Shown here: piece after piece, positions 276 to 6,105 of the stretch
How the letters are laid out: every line of letters starts with the position of its first letter
How positions within the stretch are numbered: position 1 is the first letter of the stretch
DNA from: an uncultured Alistipes sp.
GTDB taxonomy: Bacteria; Bacteroidota; Bacteroidia; Bacteroidales; Rikenellaceae
DNA: 42,078 nucleotides
NCBI GenBank assembly: GCA_944321185.1
Contig: CALUKH010000016.1
Span: 1-42,078, forward strand
Direction: 5' to 3'
Translations under genes and position numbers: made by a program
The notes under the pieces: generated by a model
The model's input: the letters and a program-made list of their open reading frames with translations, nothing else
Database searches by the model: none
What the model was told of the DNA's origin: nothing

Positions 276-315
276 AAAAAATCGGCCTTCCCCAAACAGG
301 GGAAGGCCGATTTTT
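276..315. terminator. Bidirectional intrinsic terminator after tatC
   Basis: A perfect long stem (AAAAATCGGCCTTCCCC paired with its complement) with loop AAACA is flanked by A-tract and T-tract, so it can stop transcription on both strands. It lies 16 nt after the tatC stop and ends the tatA-to-tatC operon. Confidence 0.9.
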
Positions 316-331
316 ATCAAACGTCAAACTC

Positions 332-1171
332 CTAATTTTCCTCTTTCTCCTCCTCGTCATCCGCTTCGGGTTTCTCCTCCTGCACGAAACGAATGCTCAA
401 CTCATAAAGCAGATAGAGCGGCAGAAACACAACCATCAACGTGAAGGGGTCACCCGAGGGCGTAATGATGGCAGCCAGGACCACCAGCACGACAACCGCA
501 TAACGCCGGTATTTGCGCAGGGTCGCCCGCGTCAGAAGCCCCAACTTCGACAACAGCCAGGCCAGCAGCGGCAGTTCGAAAACGATTCCCATGACGAAAA
601 TCATCAACAGGAAATTGCTCATATAAGAGTTCAGCGAGATCTGATTGGTGATCATGCTGCTCAGCTGATACTCCGTCAGGAATCGGAACGTAAAGGGAAA
701 GACGAGGAAATAGCCGACGAAACACCCCAGGAAAAACATGATCGTCCCGAAGAAGAAGGCAAACCCGACGCTTCTACGTTCGTTGACAAACAAGGCCGGC
801 TGGACGAAGTGCCAGATCTCGAAGACCAGATAGGGAAACGCCAACACCAGCGCAAACCAGAACGACGTACTGATGTGCGTCATGAACTGCGAAGCGACAT
901 TGATGTTGATGATCTCGACCGAGTAGGAGTCGTCGCTGAAGTCGGGGAAGAAGGAGCTGATCTCTCCGAGCCGCGACAGCCACCTGTACAGTGGGAAATG
1001 GGAGGTCGTGGGGGCCAGCACGAAGTGTTCGAACAGATAGGGCATGCAGCAGAAGCAGACGATCATGAAGACAAGCAGAACGCCCGCCACACGCATCAAG
1101 GCCCAGCGAAGATTCTCGAGATGGCCCCAAAAGGACATCATTTGGGGATCTTCGGGTTGTTTTTCTTCCAT
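332..1171 (-). CDS. tatC: Twin-arginine translocase subunit TatC
   Basis: TatC is the polytopic inner-membrane receptor of the Tat pathway. It binds twin-arginine signal peptides so that folded proteins can cross through TatA assemblies. The 279-residue product has the family's N-terminal cytosolic motif (SFWGHLENLR, with H17 and E19 of the signal-binding region), six hydrophobic segments, and the conserved FEIWHFVQPAL stretch after the second helix. The acidic C-terminal tail (EEEKEEN) is cytosolic. It is the last gene of an operon that starts with tatA and carries a Tat substrate (3106-4578) in between. No tatB is present, so this is the minimal TatA/TatC type. A hairpin (1199-1234) sits just upstream and may set its expression level. 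Identification is firm. Confidence 0.97.
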   Translation of the reverse strand: MEEKQPEDPQMMSFWGHLENLRWALMRVAGVLLVFMIVCFCCMPYLFEHFVLAPTTSHFPLYRWLSRLGEISSFFPDFSDDSYSVEIININVASQFMTHISTSFWFALVLAFPYLVFEIWHFVQPALFVNERRSVGFAFFFGTIMFFLGCFVGYFLVFPFTFRFLTEYQLSSMITNQISLNSYMSNFLLMIFVMGIVFELPLLAWLLSKLGLLTRATLRKYRRYAVVVLVVLAAIITPSGDPFTLMVVFLPLYLLYELSIRFVQEEKPEADDEEEKEEN

Positions 1172-1198
1172 GTTTCGATTGAGGGTTGTAATTTCAAA

Positions 1199-1234
1199 GA
1201 GACATCCGGCTACCCGCGGATAACCGGATGTCTC
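1199..1234 (-). promoter_or_regulatory. Intercistronic hairpin before tatC
   Basis: An 11-bp perfect stem (GAGACATCCGG with CCGGATGTCTC) lies in the gap between the isomerase-like gene and tatC. In the minus-strand RNA it is followed only by TTTGAAATT, a weak U-run, so it resembles a partial terminator or an RNA processing/stability element rather than a strong stop. Effect on tatC is inferred. Confidence 0.55.
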
Positions 1235-1252
1235 CGATAAAAGGATTCAGAT

Positions 1253-2158
1253 TCACTGCTCGTACGTAGCCGGCACAAACGGAGCCTGACGCAGGTAGTC
1301 GATGCATTCGTCGACGCTGCGCAGCATGTCGTTGTAGCTCGAGGCCTCGATTTCGACGATGATGTTTTCGACACCGGCCTTGGCGGCGTTGCGGAAGATG
1401 GCGTCATAGCCGACCATGCCGCTCTGACCGATTTCGCGACGGTCCTTGATGTGAAGCAGGCGGAAGCGGCCCGGATACTTCGTGAAGTAGTCGACGGGGC
1501 TGGCCTGGCCCATCACGGCCCAATAGACATCCATTTCGAAGAAGACCTTGTCGGCATCCGTATGTTCGATCATGTAGTCGTAGACGACCTGATCGTCGAT
1601 CTTGCGGAATTCGCCCGAATGGTTGTGGTATCCGAACTTGAGTCCGGCGGCGTTGCAGCGGGCGCCGACCTCGTTGAAGTAGCGGCAGTAGGTCTGCAGA
1701 TCCTTCAGGTTGTCGACACGCGGCATCGAGGGTACGACGATGTACTTCATGCCGGCCTGCTTGTGAGCGGCGATGCAGACGTCCCACCACGAGAGGGCCC
1801 GTGTGAGGTCACCGCTGGCCAGCTCCTCGTCCGAGAGGTTGGTCGTGCAGTGCGACGACAGCACCTCGAGTCCGGCCGCCTCGACATCCTTGCGGAACTG
1901 GTCGGGCGTCTGGCCGTAGAGTTTGCCGTCGGCGTAGCTGGCGGCCTCGATCGAGGTATACCCCATCCCGGCCAGCTTCTTCAGCACGTCGTTGTAGTCC
2001 TGACTGTTCTGCCCGAAGGCACCGATCAGACCGCGCACCGAATAGAGCTGAATGCTGACCTCTTTGCGGGGCAGCTGCTCTCCGTCGGGAGCGGCACCAC
2101 ACGCAGTGAGGCCGCCTCCGACGAGCAGCATGGCAATTGCCAGAAGTTGTTTTTTCAT
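1253..2158 (-). CDS. Sugar phosphate isomerase/epimerase-like lipoprotein
   Basis: The product is a TIM-barrel protein of the xylose-isomerase-like / AP endonuclease 2 family, 301 residues. Residues 1-20 form a lipoprotein signal (LLVGGGLTAC, lipidated Cys20), so it acts outside the cytoplasm, which excludes a sugar-phosphate role in its literal sense. The expected metal and substrate residues are visible: QLYSVR near the start of the barrel, HNHSGEF, HIKD and a late VEIEA. Related secreted proteins occur next to Gfo/Idh/MocA and DUF1080 genes in gut Bacteroidota, where they are implicated in elimination chemistry on 3-keto-glycosides. The gene follows DUF1080 by 22 nt and is co-transcribed with it. 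Family assignment is sure; the exact reaction is inference. Confidence 0.88.
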   Translation of the reverse strand: MKKQLLAIAMLLVGGGLTACGAAPDGEQLPRKEVSIQLYSVRGLIGAFGQNSQDYNDVLKKLAGMGYTSIEAASYADGKLYGQTPDQFRKDVEAAGLEVLSSHCTTNLSDEELASGDLTRALSWWDVCIAAHKQAGMKYIVVPSMPRVDNLKDLQTYCRYFNEVGARCNAAGLKFGYHNHSGEFRKIDDQVVYDYMIEHTDADKVFFEMDVYWAVMGQASPVDYFTKYPGRFRLLHIKDRREIGQSGMVGYDAIFRNAAKAGVENIIVEIEASSYNDMLRSVDECIDYLRQAPFVPATYEQ

Positions 2159-2180
2159 ACGCTGAAAATGCGGCTATCGA

Positions 2181-3062
2181 TTAGTCCAGCACCTTGATCC
2201 GGATGTTGCGGAACCAGACGTCGTCGCCGTGGTCCTGCATACCGATGTAACCTTCGTGGTTCGGGCCGCCGCAGTTGTTGAGCAGTTCGAAAGCCAGCGG
2301 CCACTTCTCCTCGCTGAACTTGCTCTTCTGGAGCATGTCGGTCCACTGGGGCGTCCAGAGGTGGTACTCCAGCACGTTGGCATCGTTCTGAGCGTGTACG
2401 ACCGTACCCTTGTAGACGAGGATCTTGGCCTTGTTCCACTCGCCGTAGGGCTTGGCATTCTGCGGAACGGCGGGGATCATGTCGTAGAGCGACGCAGCCT
2501 TGCGGTTACCGTCGACACCGAGTTTGGCATCGGGATGGTTCTCGTTGTCGAGCACCTGATACTCCGGGCAGGAGATGTAGATCGGCTCGATGCGCTGCTG
2601 GCCCTTGTCATCGGTCGTAGCGACCTCCTGAGCCAGGTAGAAGAGACCCGAGTTGCCGCCCTTGGAGACTTTCCATTCCAGTTCGAGTTCGAAGTTCTTG
2701 AACTTGTGGGCGAAGATCAGGTCGCCGCCCTCGCTGGTCTGAGCTTCGCCGCCGCCCGTTCCGTTGAACTTGATGGCGCCGTTGTCGATCGTCCAGCGCG
2801 AAGGCACGTTGTCCTTGCCGTAACCGCGCCAGCCGTTGAAGCTCTTGCCGTCGAAAATCACGTAGTAACCGTCCTTGTCCTGCGGGAAGGCCGACAGATC
2901 GACCTGCTCCTTTTCGAGGACCGTATATGCGGGAGCCGCTTTGGTTTGGGCATCGGCCGACTCCGTCTGAGCGGTCTTGGCCTTTTTGCCGCTCTGGCCG
3001 CCGCACGCGGCGAGCGTTGCGGCGAGAGCGATGCATGCGATGGACAATAATCTCATTTTCAT
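2181..3062 (-). CDS. DUF1080 (3-keto-disaccharide hydrolase family) lipoprotein
   Basis: The start was placed at the ATG at 3062, which gives 293 residues beginning with a clean lipoprotein signal (MKMRLLSIAC..., LAAC lipobox, Cys20). The frame remains open further upstream but that part has no signal peptide and overlaps the gap after the oxidoreductase. From about residue 60 the chain is a DUF1080 domain, starting YYVIFDGKSFNGWRGYG, a concanavalin-like beta-sandwich family that includes 3-keto-disaccharide hydrolases. Characteristic stretches NSGLFYLAQE, EYQVLDNENHPD and the C-terminal GYIGMQDHGDDVWFRNIRI are present. It lies between the Tat-exported oxidoreductase and the isomerase-like lipoprotein, which supports a periplasmic keto-sugar pathway. 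Substrate is unknown. Confidence 0.9.
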   Translation of the reverse strand: MKMRLLSIACIALAATLAACGGQSGKKAKTAQTESADAQTKAAPAYTVLEKEQVDLSAFPQDKDGYYVIFDGKSFNGWRGYGKDNVPSRWTIDNGAIKFNGTGGGEAQTSEGGDLIFAHKFKNFELELEWKVSKGGNSGLFYLAQEVATTDDKGQQRIEPIYISCPEYQVLDNENHPDAKLGVDGNRKAASLYDMIPAVPQNAKPYGEWNKAKILVYKGTVVHAQNDANVLEYHLWTPQWTDMLQKSKFSEEKWPLAFELLNNCGGPNHEGYIGMQDHGDDVWFRNIRIKVLD

Positions 3063-3105
3063 AGGTTTGATAATTTTAAAGGTTTGTTTCTCGGTTGCGG
3101 AAGGT

Positions 3106-4578
3106 TTAGCGGGGCATGTCAGGCAGCTTCCACCCCTCGCGGTAGTTGTGCTTGATGAGCTCCTGAGCGAACTGCTGGGCATTGACCGGATCGGTCCAGG
3201 TCTTGTCGAAGGTCGGATGACCGTCCGTGATGTGGAAACCGTCCTTGATCACCGTGCGGATGGTCAGGTCGTCGGGGATGTTCGTGAATCGCATGTTCTC
3301 GCCGTCCCACTCCAGTTCGCGGTTGAGGCTCTGCAGGCGCACGGCCAGCACACCCATGACCACCATTTCGTTGAACGGACCGGCCTCGCTGAAGTCCGAA
3401 GCCGACGGGATGCGGTCTTCGGGATCCTCCTTGCAGGCACGCACCCAGTCCATCTGGTGCGACTCCTTGACTTCGCGCAGCACCTTCGGGGCGTTGGGCA
3501 CGCGACCCGAAACCAGATAGGGATCGACCCCGTAGCAGCCGCAGATGAGCGTATCCTTCGTACCGTAGAAGATCACGCCGCCGCCGCTGACATTGAGATC
3601 CTTGCCGGCGGGCAGACCGGCCGGACGCTCGGGCAGCAGACCGCCGTCATACCAGTGCACCTCGACTTCGGGCATGGCGACTTTGGGCATGTTGTCGCGG
3701 GCCGGGAAGATGAACTTCACGTGCTGGGCCATCGGGGCCGATTCGGTGAGCAGCAGCGTCGAACTGCCCTGCACCTTGGTCGGGTAGCCGAGCTTCAGGG
3801 CCTTGAACACCGGGTGGAGGATATGGCAGGCCATGTCACCCAGGGCACCGGTACCGAAGTCCCACCATCCGCGGAAGTTCCACGGCGTATAGATCGAGTT
3901 GTAGGGGCGCCAGGGGGCCGGGCCGATGAATGCATCCCAGTTGAGGGTCTTCGGCACGCGCATGTCCTTTTCGGGACGGGCCAGACCCTGCGGCCAGATG
4001 GGACGGTCGGTGAAGGTTTCGACCTTGCGGACCTCGCCGATTTCGCCGTTCCAGATCCACTCGCAGATCTTGCGCACGCCCTCGCCCGAAGCACCCTGGT
4101 TACCCATCTGGGTGGCCACCTTGTATTTAGCGGCGAGTTTGGTCAGCAGACGCGATTCATAGACGGTGTGCGTCAGAGGCTTCTCCACATAGACGTGCTT
4201 GCCGGCGGTGATGGCGTCGGCGGCGATGATCGCGTGCGTATGGTCGGCCGTAGCGACCATGACGGCATCTGCCTGGTTGAGCAGTTCATCGTACATCTTG
4301 CGGTAGTCGTTGTACTTCTTGGCAGCGGGATAGCGCTTGAAGACGTGGTCGGCATAGGCCCAGTCGACGTCGCACAGACCGATGATGTTCTGGCTTTCGA
4401 GACCCTGGAGCACGGCGGCGCCGCGGCCTCCGATACCTACGCCCAGGATGTTGAGTTTGTCACTGGGAGCCGTGTAACCGAATTTCTTGCCCAGCACCGT
4501 ACTGGGTACGACCGCCAGTCCGAGCGCGGCGGCAGCTCCTGTTTTCAGGAACTTTCTTCTTGACATTTCGTTTGCCAT
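3106..4578 (-). CDS. Tat-exported Gfo/Idh/MocA family oxidoreductase
   Basis: This 490-residue NAD(P)-dependent oxidoreductase starts with a classic twin-arginine signal: SRRKFLK with the arginine pair at residues 7-8, then a weakly hydrophobic Ala-rich segment to about residue 30. The Rossmann motif GVGIGGRG lies at 46-53 and the catalytic EKP (Lys133) follows GKHVYV. The C-terminal half is the substrate domain of the family. Export through Tat makes sense because the enzyme must fold around its tightly bound nicotinamide cofactor before leaving the cytoplasm. Members of this family oxidise sugar hydroxyls, often at C3. It sits directly after tatA and before DUF1080, in the same operon. An alternative start at Met5 would not alter the signal. 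Function is confident at family level only. Confidence 0.93.
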   Translation of the reverse strand: MANEMSRRKFLKTGAAAALGLAVVPSTVLGKKFGYTAPSDKLNILGVGIGGRGAAVLQGLESQNIIGLCDVDWAYADHVFKRYPAAKKYNDYRKMYDELLNQADAVMVATADHTHAIIAADAITAGKHVYVEKPLTHTVYESRLLTKLAAKYKVATQMGNQGASGEGVRKICEWIWNGEIGEVRKVETFTDRPIWPQGLARPEKDMRVPKTLNWDAFIGPAPWRPYNSIYTPWNFRGWWDFGTGALGDMACHILHPVFKALKLGYPTKVQGSSTLLLTESAPMAQHVKFIFPARDNMPKVAMPEVEVHWYDGGLLPERPAGLPAGKDLNVSGGGVIFYGTKDTLICGCYGVDPYLVSGRVPNAPKVLREVKESHQMDWVRACKEDPEDRIPSASDFSEAGPFNEMVVMGVLAVRLQSLNRELEWDGENMRFTNIPDDLTIRTVIKDGFHITDGHPTFDKTWTDPVNAQQFAQELIKHNYREGWKLPDMPR

Positions 4579-4629
4579 GGTAATCGCGATATTTAGGTTT
4601 GGTGTAGTTTTCAGCAGGCGGGTGAAGGG

Positions 4630-4839
4630 TTACTGTTTGGGCGAGGGTTTGTTGTCCTGGTCGGTATTTTCAATATCGCGCTCGATATTGTTGACACCGT
4701 CCTTGAAGCTGCGGATACCCTTGCCGATACCCTTCATCAGCTCGGGGATCTTCTTGCCGCCGAAGAGCAGCAGGACAATGAGAGCGATGACGATGATCTC
4801 ACCAGCTCCGATGTTGCCGAGGAATAAGAAATGATTCAT
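4630..4839 (-). CDS. tatA: Sec-independent translocase protein TatA/E
   Basis: The 69-residue product has the whole TatA pattern: a short periplasmic N-terminus, one membrane helix (about residues 10-26), the conserved Phe26-Gly27 hinge, an amphipathic helix ([20 protein letters not shown]), and a charged, flexible tail. TatA oligomers make the passage for folded proteins selected by TatC. It is the first gene after the promoter at 4892-4899; the Tat-signal oxidoreductase follows about 50 nt later and tatC closes the operon. Confidence 0.96.
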
Positions 4840-4891
4840 CTTGGTCTGCGTTTTTAGTGATTACGATTTTCGGTTTCTTTCAAAATGTTTT

Positions 4892-4899
4892 CAAAAATA
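4892..4899 (-). promoter_or_regulatory. -7 box of the tatA operon promoter
   Basis: The minus strand reads TATTTTTG, a match to the Bacteroidota -7 consensus TAnnTTTG. A TTTT run about 18-20 nt upstream may serve as the -33 element. The predicted leader to the tatA ATG (4839) is about 48 nt and AT-rich. Confidence 0.65.
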
Positions 4900-5031: not shown

Positions 5032-6105
5032 TCAGTTGTGCTTGTGTAACAATCCGTAACCGTTCGTCATGGTCCGTCGCCGTTCGCGGATGGCGTCAAG
5101 CTCCTGCGGGGTACCGATGGCGGGCATGTCGTGGTTGCGGGCATCGTCGAGGAACCGCCACGCATACTCCGAGGCGATGGCGGCATCGCGGAACTGGGGC
5201 AGATGCCGGTCGCGGACGCCGCTGCGCAGCGATTCGGCAAAACGGCGGCACAACGTGTCGATGTTCTTTCCGCCGTAGGGTTTTTCGATGCGCTGGGTCT
5301 GGGTGACGCCGTGCAGTTCGACGACGGCCGTCTTGAAGTCGTGCGTCATCCGTGCGATGCCTTTCGAACCGATAATATCAATATAGGAGTTGTGGGTCTG
5401 ATCCTTGGCCAGCTGCCCGTAGACGTGGCCCTGGGTGATGTCGAAGACCACGCCGTTTTCGAACGTTCCGTGACACTGCAGCCACCACGGGTCCTTGTAG
5501 CTCCACATGCGCAGGGCCTGTGCGTGCCAGGTTCTGAACTCCGAGTTGGCATACCAGCGGGCGATGTCCACGTAGTGCATGCCGCAGTCGTGGAATGCCG
5601 GACCTTCGTATTCATGACCTTCGCCGGGGGCCAGACCGGGGGTCATGTGGCAGACGCGGATGATGGCCAGTTCGCCGATTTCGCCCCGGGCGATGAACTC
5701 CCGGATGGCCTGGTGATACCACGAATTCCGCAGATAGAGGTTGACCGTCGACAGGAGCCCGCTCTTTTCGGCCAGATCGACAACCTTCCATTCGCTGACC
5801 TGATTCTCGGCAATGGGTTTTTCGGCAATGACATGCTTGCCGGCGGCAAAGGCCCTCTCGATCTGCTCCCGGCGCGAATCGGCCAGCGCAAAGAGGCCAA
5901 CCACCTGCACCTGAGGATCCTCGAAGATCTCCCTCTCATCGGAGACGATTTTTGCCTCCGGGGCCTTTTTGTGTGCATATTGACGGGACTCGGCCGAGGT
6001 ATCGCAAATATAGGCAACCTCCCAGTCGGGGCTTTTCTGCATCTGCTCGAGATAGAATCCGCCCATTCTGCCGAATCCGATCAGTCCTACCTTTATAGGA
6101 TTCAT
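5032..6105 (-). CDS. Cytosolic Gfo/Idh/MocA family oxidoreductase
   Basis: The product (357 residues) has no signal peptide and begins at once with a Rossmann fold: KVGLIGFGRMG, glycine motif at 10-15, then the catalytic EKP (Lys96) after GKHVIA. It belongs to the same superfamily as the Tat-exported enzyme next door but is shorter and diverged. A cytosolic partner could reduce the keto-sugar product after uptake, completing an oxidation-cleavage-reduction route; that is inference from proximity. It has its own promoter (6203-6210) and a leader of about 95 nt containing a nine-base C run in the RNA (6171-6179). The 192-nt gap to tatA carries the tatA promoter. Family is sure, substrate unknown. 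Confidence 0.9.
   Translation of the reverse strand: MNPIKVGLIGFGRMGGFYLEQMQKSPDWEVAYICDTSAESRQYAHKKAPEAKIVSDEREIFEDPQVQVVGLFALADSRREQIERAFAAGKHVIAEKPIAENQVSEWKVVDLAEKSGLLSTVNLYLRNSWYHQAIREFIARGEIGELAIIRVCHMTPGLAPGEGHEYEGPAFHDCGMHYVDIARWYANSEFRTWHAQALRMWSYKDPWWLQCHGTFENGVVFDITQGHVYGQLAKDQTHNSYIDIIGSKGIARMTHDFKTAVVELHGVTQTQRIEKPYGGKNIDTLCRRFAESLRSGVRDRHLPQFRDAAIASEYAWRFLDDARNHDMPAIGTPQELDAIRERRRTMTNGYGLLHKHN

Follow-up and report, generated by a model that had tools for sequence, protein, structure and literature searches.

An operon of an uncultured Alistipes quite probably represents a BT2159-BT2156-type oxidative operon equipped with a minimal TatAC translocase of its own. The window, i.e. 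the whole stretch of DNA analysed (42,078 nucleotides), is contig C16 (labelled G000:C16). The genome is 79.1% complete and comprises 1.97 Mb on 42 contigs. Judged by sequence, the unit is the known BT2159-BT2156 gene order, into which tatA has been inserted and to whose end tatC has been added. The strongest new result concerns relatives of this genome. Here a relaxed, natural Tat system appears to be present, probably one that works with a single arginine, as suggested by the signals and TatC residues of a second lineage.

Gene content and predicted pathway

The operon is read from the minus strand. The first gene encodes a putative BT_2159-family disaccharide 3-dehydrogenase (5032..6105; NF058563, 680.5 bits, cut-off 650; Gfo/Idh/MocA in Pfam), in which no export signal is seen by eye. 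It is followed by tatA (4630..4839; TIGR01411, 63.8 bits, cut-off 53.9) and by the gene of a BT_2158-family glycoside 3-dehydrogenase (3106..4578) with the Tat signal MANEMSRRKFLKTGAAAALGLAVVPSTVLG, a PF10518 match and an equivalog match to NF058561 (899 bits, cut-off 750, model positions 1-487 covered). Two proteins with lipoprotein-type N-termini come next (lipoboxes LAAC and LTAC, by eye): a BT2157-like 3-keto-disaccharide hydrolase (2181..3062) consisting of a single PF06439 (DUF1080) domain (156.7 bits, cut-off 26.8), and a BT2156-like protein with a xylose-isomerase-like TIM barrel (1253..2158; PF01261, 65.3 bits). The last gene is tatC (332..1171; TIGR00945, 159.6 bits, cut-off 132.7). 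The gaps, in order of transcription, are 192, 51, 43, 22 and 81 bp. A sequence-only reading had described five of these genes, at 4839-332 of the minus strand, and gene calls, Pfam and NCBIfam agree with it in location and content. It missed the BT_2159-type gene (6105-5032), 192 bp 5' of tatA, so that the operon is one gene larger.

That reading had also proposed an oxidative route of glycoside breakdown, an assignment that gains support from the NCBIfam equivalogs and from close PDB homologues of three enzymes: 8tdf for the BT_2158-type enzyme (1010 bits), 8v31 for the DUF1080 protein (528 bits) and 8tcd for the isomerase-like protein (414 bits). The PDB search gave no close solved homologue of the BT_2159-type dehydrogenase. 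The 8TC*, 8TD* and 8V31 entries presumably are the enzymes of the study on non-classical glycoside cleavage; three window enzymes match them, and tat linkage is absent from the structure records examined. The nearest named locus to the BT_2158-type enzyme is from an uncultured Alistipes (97% identity).

What might the operon do? For BT2158 of Bacteroides thetaiotaomicron, the published function is that of a periplasmic glycoside 3-dehydrogenase required for disaccharide and glucosinolate metabolism, and its deletion mutant reportedly fails to use trehalose, leucrose or palatinose for growth (PMC11300592). BT2157 is cited as a 3-ketotrehalose hydrolase (PMC9007349), and a review gives the operon as BT2159-BT2156 (PMC12385236). 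On raffinose-family sugars, deletions of BT2157 and BT2158 caused no defect according to a further study, which counts against a wide role (PMC11501099). The reaction steps in the window operon can be predicted from homologues. While still in the cytoplasm, the BT_2158-type enzyme would fold with its nucleotide cofactor, and the TatAC whose genes bracket its own would export it in the folded state. Once in the periplasm, it would oxidise the C3 position of glycosides; cleavage and processing of the keto-glycoside would fall to the two lipoproteins (DUF1080 and TIM-barrel). Co-regulation of the operon products, like their export and catalysis, is a prediction.

Compared with BT2156-BT2160 of B. 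thetaiotaomicron, the homologues of BT2159, BT2158, BT2157 and BT2156 stand in the same order, where the order in that species is taken from locus numbers and papers, and where the BT2156 homologue is assigned by fold family and position. The window differs in that tatA separates the homologues of BT2159 and BT2158 and tatC comes after that of BT2156, and the next gene on the 5' side is a divergent SAICAR synthetase gene and not a BT2160-like regulator. In Bacteroides bouchesdurhonensis the operon has no tat genes within 10 kb on either side, and tatC is about 0.8 Mb away.

Two 17-bp hairpins on the minus strand flank tatC. The one 3' of it (277..315) resembles an intrinsic terminator with a U tract (-36.5 kcal/mol, z -6.49); a terminator scan of the window, which found no excess (7 against 7.0 expected), does not have it on its list. 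The other, with a weak U tail, lies in the gap between the isomerase-like gene and tatC (1199..1235; -32.5 kcal/mol for the stretch, z -3.77). It is a possible attenuator or processing site, and a strong hairpin at this place may lower tatC expression; tatC may thus be partly uncoupled from the operon. Across nine relatives with the window's arrangement, the distance between these two genes ranges from overlapping open reading frame calls to 840 bp.

Linkage of tat genes to the pathway

In the source genome one TatC was found, and the tatA of the operon is the sole PF02416 match above cut-off; there is thus a TatC equivalog with one TatA-type protein and no TatB in this 79% complete genome. 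Substrates were counted with a Tat-signal profile built from 16 rows with and without the second arginine, 7 of them from the second lineage. PF10518 or TIGR01409 alone counted poorly and were rejected, and a DNA pattern for SRRxFL was dropped, as it gave 20 matches against 34 in a reversed control. The profile finds four Tat-type signals in the source genome, all RR: those of the BT_2158-type enzyme, of a second Gfo/Idh/MocA protein in another DUF1080 cluster (contig C9), of an aldo/keto reductase with a 4Fe-4S domain (contig C26) and of a protein with weak DUF3604/CehA similarity (contig C1). The contig C9 cluster (L197) consists of DUF1080, Tat-Gfo, HEAT-DUF1080 and Gfo genes and has no tatA-tatC in the source genome. 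In two large relatives this second cluster holds its own tatA-tatC pair: G128/G590 (L184/L208) and G101 (L172), where G590, from an Alistipes montrealensis locus, shares its TatC coordinates with G128 and appears to be the same genome. The first operon of G101 has kept tatA and has no tatC.

From the signals, Tat apparently serves sugar-oxidising clusters, yet other substrates too, and the operon TatC would also serve a few further proteins, including other Gfo/Idh/MocA enzymes. The sequence-only reading had suggested that Tat is dedicated to, or co-regulated with, this catabolism. The packaging holds up, as the linkage is a repeated one; exclusivity does not, as the aldo/keto reductase and the weakly CehA/DUF3604-like protein also bear Tat-type signals, which makes four in the source genome. 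Many unrelated Tat substrates together with a second tatAC locus were not found in this genome (79% complete).

How regular is the linkage? Of 200 genomes of the window's family (taken as Rikenellaceae), 139 have tatC and 56 have the BT_2158 enzyme. tatC occurs in 55 of the 56 genomes with the enzyme and in 84 of the 144 that do not have it (Fisher p 1e-9, kinship ignored). It lies near the enzyme in 32 of the 56, in two arrangements of 16 genomes each: 3' of the enzyme on the same strand at 1.9-2.9 kb, as in the window, or 5' of it at 1.0-4.1 kb. In 23 it is elsewhere or on another contig, and in one none was found. Of the 16 window-type genomes, 15 have a single tatC. Eleven upstream-type loci that were mapped have the order tatA-tatC-isomerase-BT2158-DUF1080, with weak isomerase matches in most. 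TatC was not found in 61 of the 200 genomes, several of them 98-99% complete, and Tat seems to be dispensable in the Rikenellaceae. The order-level co-occurrence (94/101 against 235/292 among the matches listed, by eye; p 0.003) is weak because tatC is common in the order.

Named loci were surveyed as the best 80 of 503 BT_2158 relatives. Within these 80, tatA before and tatC after the enzyme are found in 30 (with tatC 6.2 kb away in one), a tatA-tatC pair 3' of the enzyme in 5 (four Dysgonomonas and one Azobacteroides MAG), tatA only in 4 and other layouts in 2. In 39 of the best 80, tat genes are absent from the stretch examined, which in 23 of these extends at least 5 kb to both sides (by eye). 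The arrangement thus recurs, with the bracket of tatA and tatC in 30 of the best 80 of 503 loci and with tatC 3' of the enzyme on the same strand in 16 of the 56 family genomes, and is not due to chance. It is also not required, as 39 of those best 80 loci have no tat gene nearby and tatC is elsewhere in 23 of 56 genomes. In the titles and part texts searched, with subscription papers outside the search, no tat genes were found described in a BT2159-BT2156-type operon.

Trees were calculated quickly, with SH-aLRT support only. That of TatC (82 rows, with long-branch warnings) joins the bracket TatC of Rikenellaceae, Bacteroidaceae and Cryptobacteroides with the linked TatC of Dysgonomonas and the unlinked one of B. 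bouchesdurhonensis (41 rows, SH-aLRT 99), at a distance from the remaining TatC of the window's family; the upstream-type TatC form a clade of their own (11 rows, SH-aLRT 99). The BT_2158 tree (121 rows) has a similar main split, with 84 rows on one side (support 98) and 30 rows of the window's family on the other (97). The two arrangements, tatC downstream and tatC upstream, are on separate lineages. As both trees show the same main split, the linkage of tatAC to the pathway probably arose at least twice. The window type has probably either passed from one family to another or long formed a lineage of its own, and the trees fit both. The module would have its own evolutionary history, apart from that of the family's other Tat genes.

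Might TatAC be simply a general exporter whose genes settled beside a frequent substrate, so that the operon is a neighbourhood and not a module? The 84 genomes with tatC and without the BT_2158 enzyme would fit this, as would the four Tat-type signals of the source genome and the tatAC pairs that stand beside other substrates. Such a reading is unlikely, since the same gene set is found on one strand in at least two orders, and since bracket TatC and BT_2158 share their main split across families. The link of Tat with the pathway that the sequence-only reading had drawn is strengthened by the recurrence in different gene orders and by the single tatC of 15 of 16 window-type genomes.

Two further neighbourhoods may be mentioned. 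A tatA-tatC pair adjoins an aldo/keto reductase with an RR signal in G110 (L147) and G038 (L158), genomes without BT_2158. In G067 (L180), tatA-tatC precedes two Gfo/Idh/MocA genes with Tat signals and one DUF1080 gene, a set that differs from the window operon.

Signals and TatC residues in a second lineage

The window has the canonical state, with the signal SRRKFLK and E103 in TatC; the loss of the second arginine thus belongs to relatives. The equivalents of H12, F94 and E103 are all kept in the window TatC, and the E15 position is N. The second lineage comprises the 16 upstream-type genomes and G141, 17 in all (loci L133-L142, L145 and L220-L226). In G141 the enzyme is at a contig edge and tatC on another contig; this genome was included before its signal was inspected. 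The BT_2158 signal of the lineage is SRADFLK, or SRGEFLT in two genomes, against SRRxFL elsewhere. In the BT_2158 tree set the second arginine is lost in 19 rows, from the 17 genomes, and kept in all 102 others, two of which are from the source genome; the loss needs two changes on the tree, and one origin is possible.

TatC has changed as well. At the E103 position the 17 second-lineage proteins have Q (11), V (3), A, L or M (1 each), and E is kept in 113 of 114 other distinct TatC. The exception, G138 (L349, L238), has A, and no Tat-type signal was found around its tatC. E15 is E in all 17, against 29 of the 114 others; H12 and F94 are kept in all 17, and the Y100 position is P, T or S in the lineage and variable in other TatC too. 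A cryo-EM study describes a contact of the first arginine with E15 through water and a salt bridge of the second arginine with E103, where this arginine also packs against Y100 (PMC13323110). A mutant study regards F94 and E103 as almost entirely invariant across the three domains of life (PMC5539426). With E103 and the second arginine lost, and E15 and the first arginine kept, the second pair of partners is gone and the first is retained.

Other substrates show the same tendency. The mixed profile finds 4-15 Tat-type signals per genome in the 17 second-lineage genomes and 4-6 in five window-type genomes, against 0-1 in five genomes with tatC and without BT_2158 and 0-1 in six tatC-negative genomes, two of which have one match. 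The second lineage gives 144 matches, of which 19 are BT_2158 copies and 125 are others. The residue that follows the first arginine was read in 66 of these 125, for the most part the stronger matches: K 26, R 18, G 8, L 8, S 3, A 3. In the five window-type genomes, 10 of 21 non-BT_2158 matches were tallied, with 9 R and one K. These shares are estimates because 7 of the 16 profile rows came from the second lineage.

Orthologues can be compared directly. The isomerase signal is RL in 17 of 17 second-lineage genomes and RR in the 10 other copies that have a Tat-type motif; the motif is absent from the isomerases of the window type and of most other loci. The Gfo signal of the second cluster is RK in 12 of 12 in the second lineage, against RR in 8 rows elsewhere, where G128 and G590 are apparently the same genome and a ninth row (G101) is cut at the edge of its stretch. 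The aldo/keto reductase signal stays RR in 3 of 3. Seven proteins with altered signals belong, by Pfam, to Gfo/Idh/MocA (4), TIM-barrel isomerase-like (2) and enolase-like (1) families. Upstream-type isomerase signals read DRL or NRL, and the isomerase open reading frame of L137 is about 90 residues longer than that of the window. A signal MDRLEFLK adjoins a tatC that keeps E103 in G156 (L333) and G137 (L339). The idea that genomes without tatC lose RR was rejected: seven usable BT_2158 rows keep RR. Rows came from six of the seven order-level tatC-less genomes among the matches listed, the G352 fragment being excluded; RR is kept in the G075 row.

On balance, these comparisons favour a single-arginine Tat without twin-arginine recognition, packaged with the sugar-oxidising operon, in which E103 and the second arginine of several substrates would have been lost together while E15 and the first arginine stayed fixed. 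The genome counts for the two losses are not independent, as one or two branches may explain them. Could the lineage-wide change of RR to RX be drift, after TatC had grown less choosy in some other way and with residue 103 not the cause? Each of the two traits changes on one or two branches, which brings the association close to a single event; RL signals stand beside E103-keeping TatC in G137 and G156, and a window-type genome has one RK signal. Drift is nonetheless a doubtful explanation, since several orthologous families changed, and since the two positions that changed contact each other directly in the cryo-EM structure (PMC13323110). That SR(A/G)xFL is no longer a Tat signal (the enzyme being cytoplasmic or Sec-exported) and that TatC is decaying would agree with the transport-inactive, binding-negative E. 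coli TatC E103A control (PMC13323110) and with the poor tolerance of E103 changes, even to lysine (PMC5539426), and is improbable in view of the first arginine, F and L of the BT_2158 signal and H12, E15 and F94 of TatC being conserved in 17 of 17 genomes, tatA and tatC adjoining the enzyme in 11 mapped cases, 4-15 Tat-type signals per genome against 0-1 in the six tatC-negative controls, and the persistence of RR signals (18 of 66).

Relation to known Tat systems

Through this operon, a route of sugar breakdown in the gut is linked to one specific export machine. The contact that defines Tat can be studied in the second lineage as in an experiment of nature: which of the arginines, and which glutamate of TatC, is needed? 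It also bears on whether signal and receptor can change together, and predictors based on RR would miss many Tat substrates of these bacteria. In the titles and part texts searched, with subscription papers outside the search, neither a natural TatC without E103 nor a paired loss was found.

Minimal TatAC systems are known, e.g. Bacillus TatAdCd, which is encoded next to its substrate. The window resembles these in that a substrate gene is accompanied by single genes for TatA and TatC. It differs in that the putative substrate is a catabolic Gfo/Idh/MocA enzyme, and a further difference is the TatC without E103 of the second lineage. In E. coli, TatC E103K and twin-arginine mutants and their suppressors show that Tat function can be retained when the arginine pair, or the TatC site for it, is lost, rescue being by raised hydrophobicity of the signal (PMC5539426). 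In the second lineage, by comparison, both partners have changed naturally, and in several substrate families.
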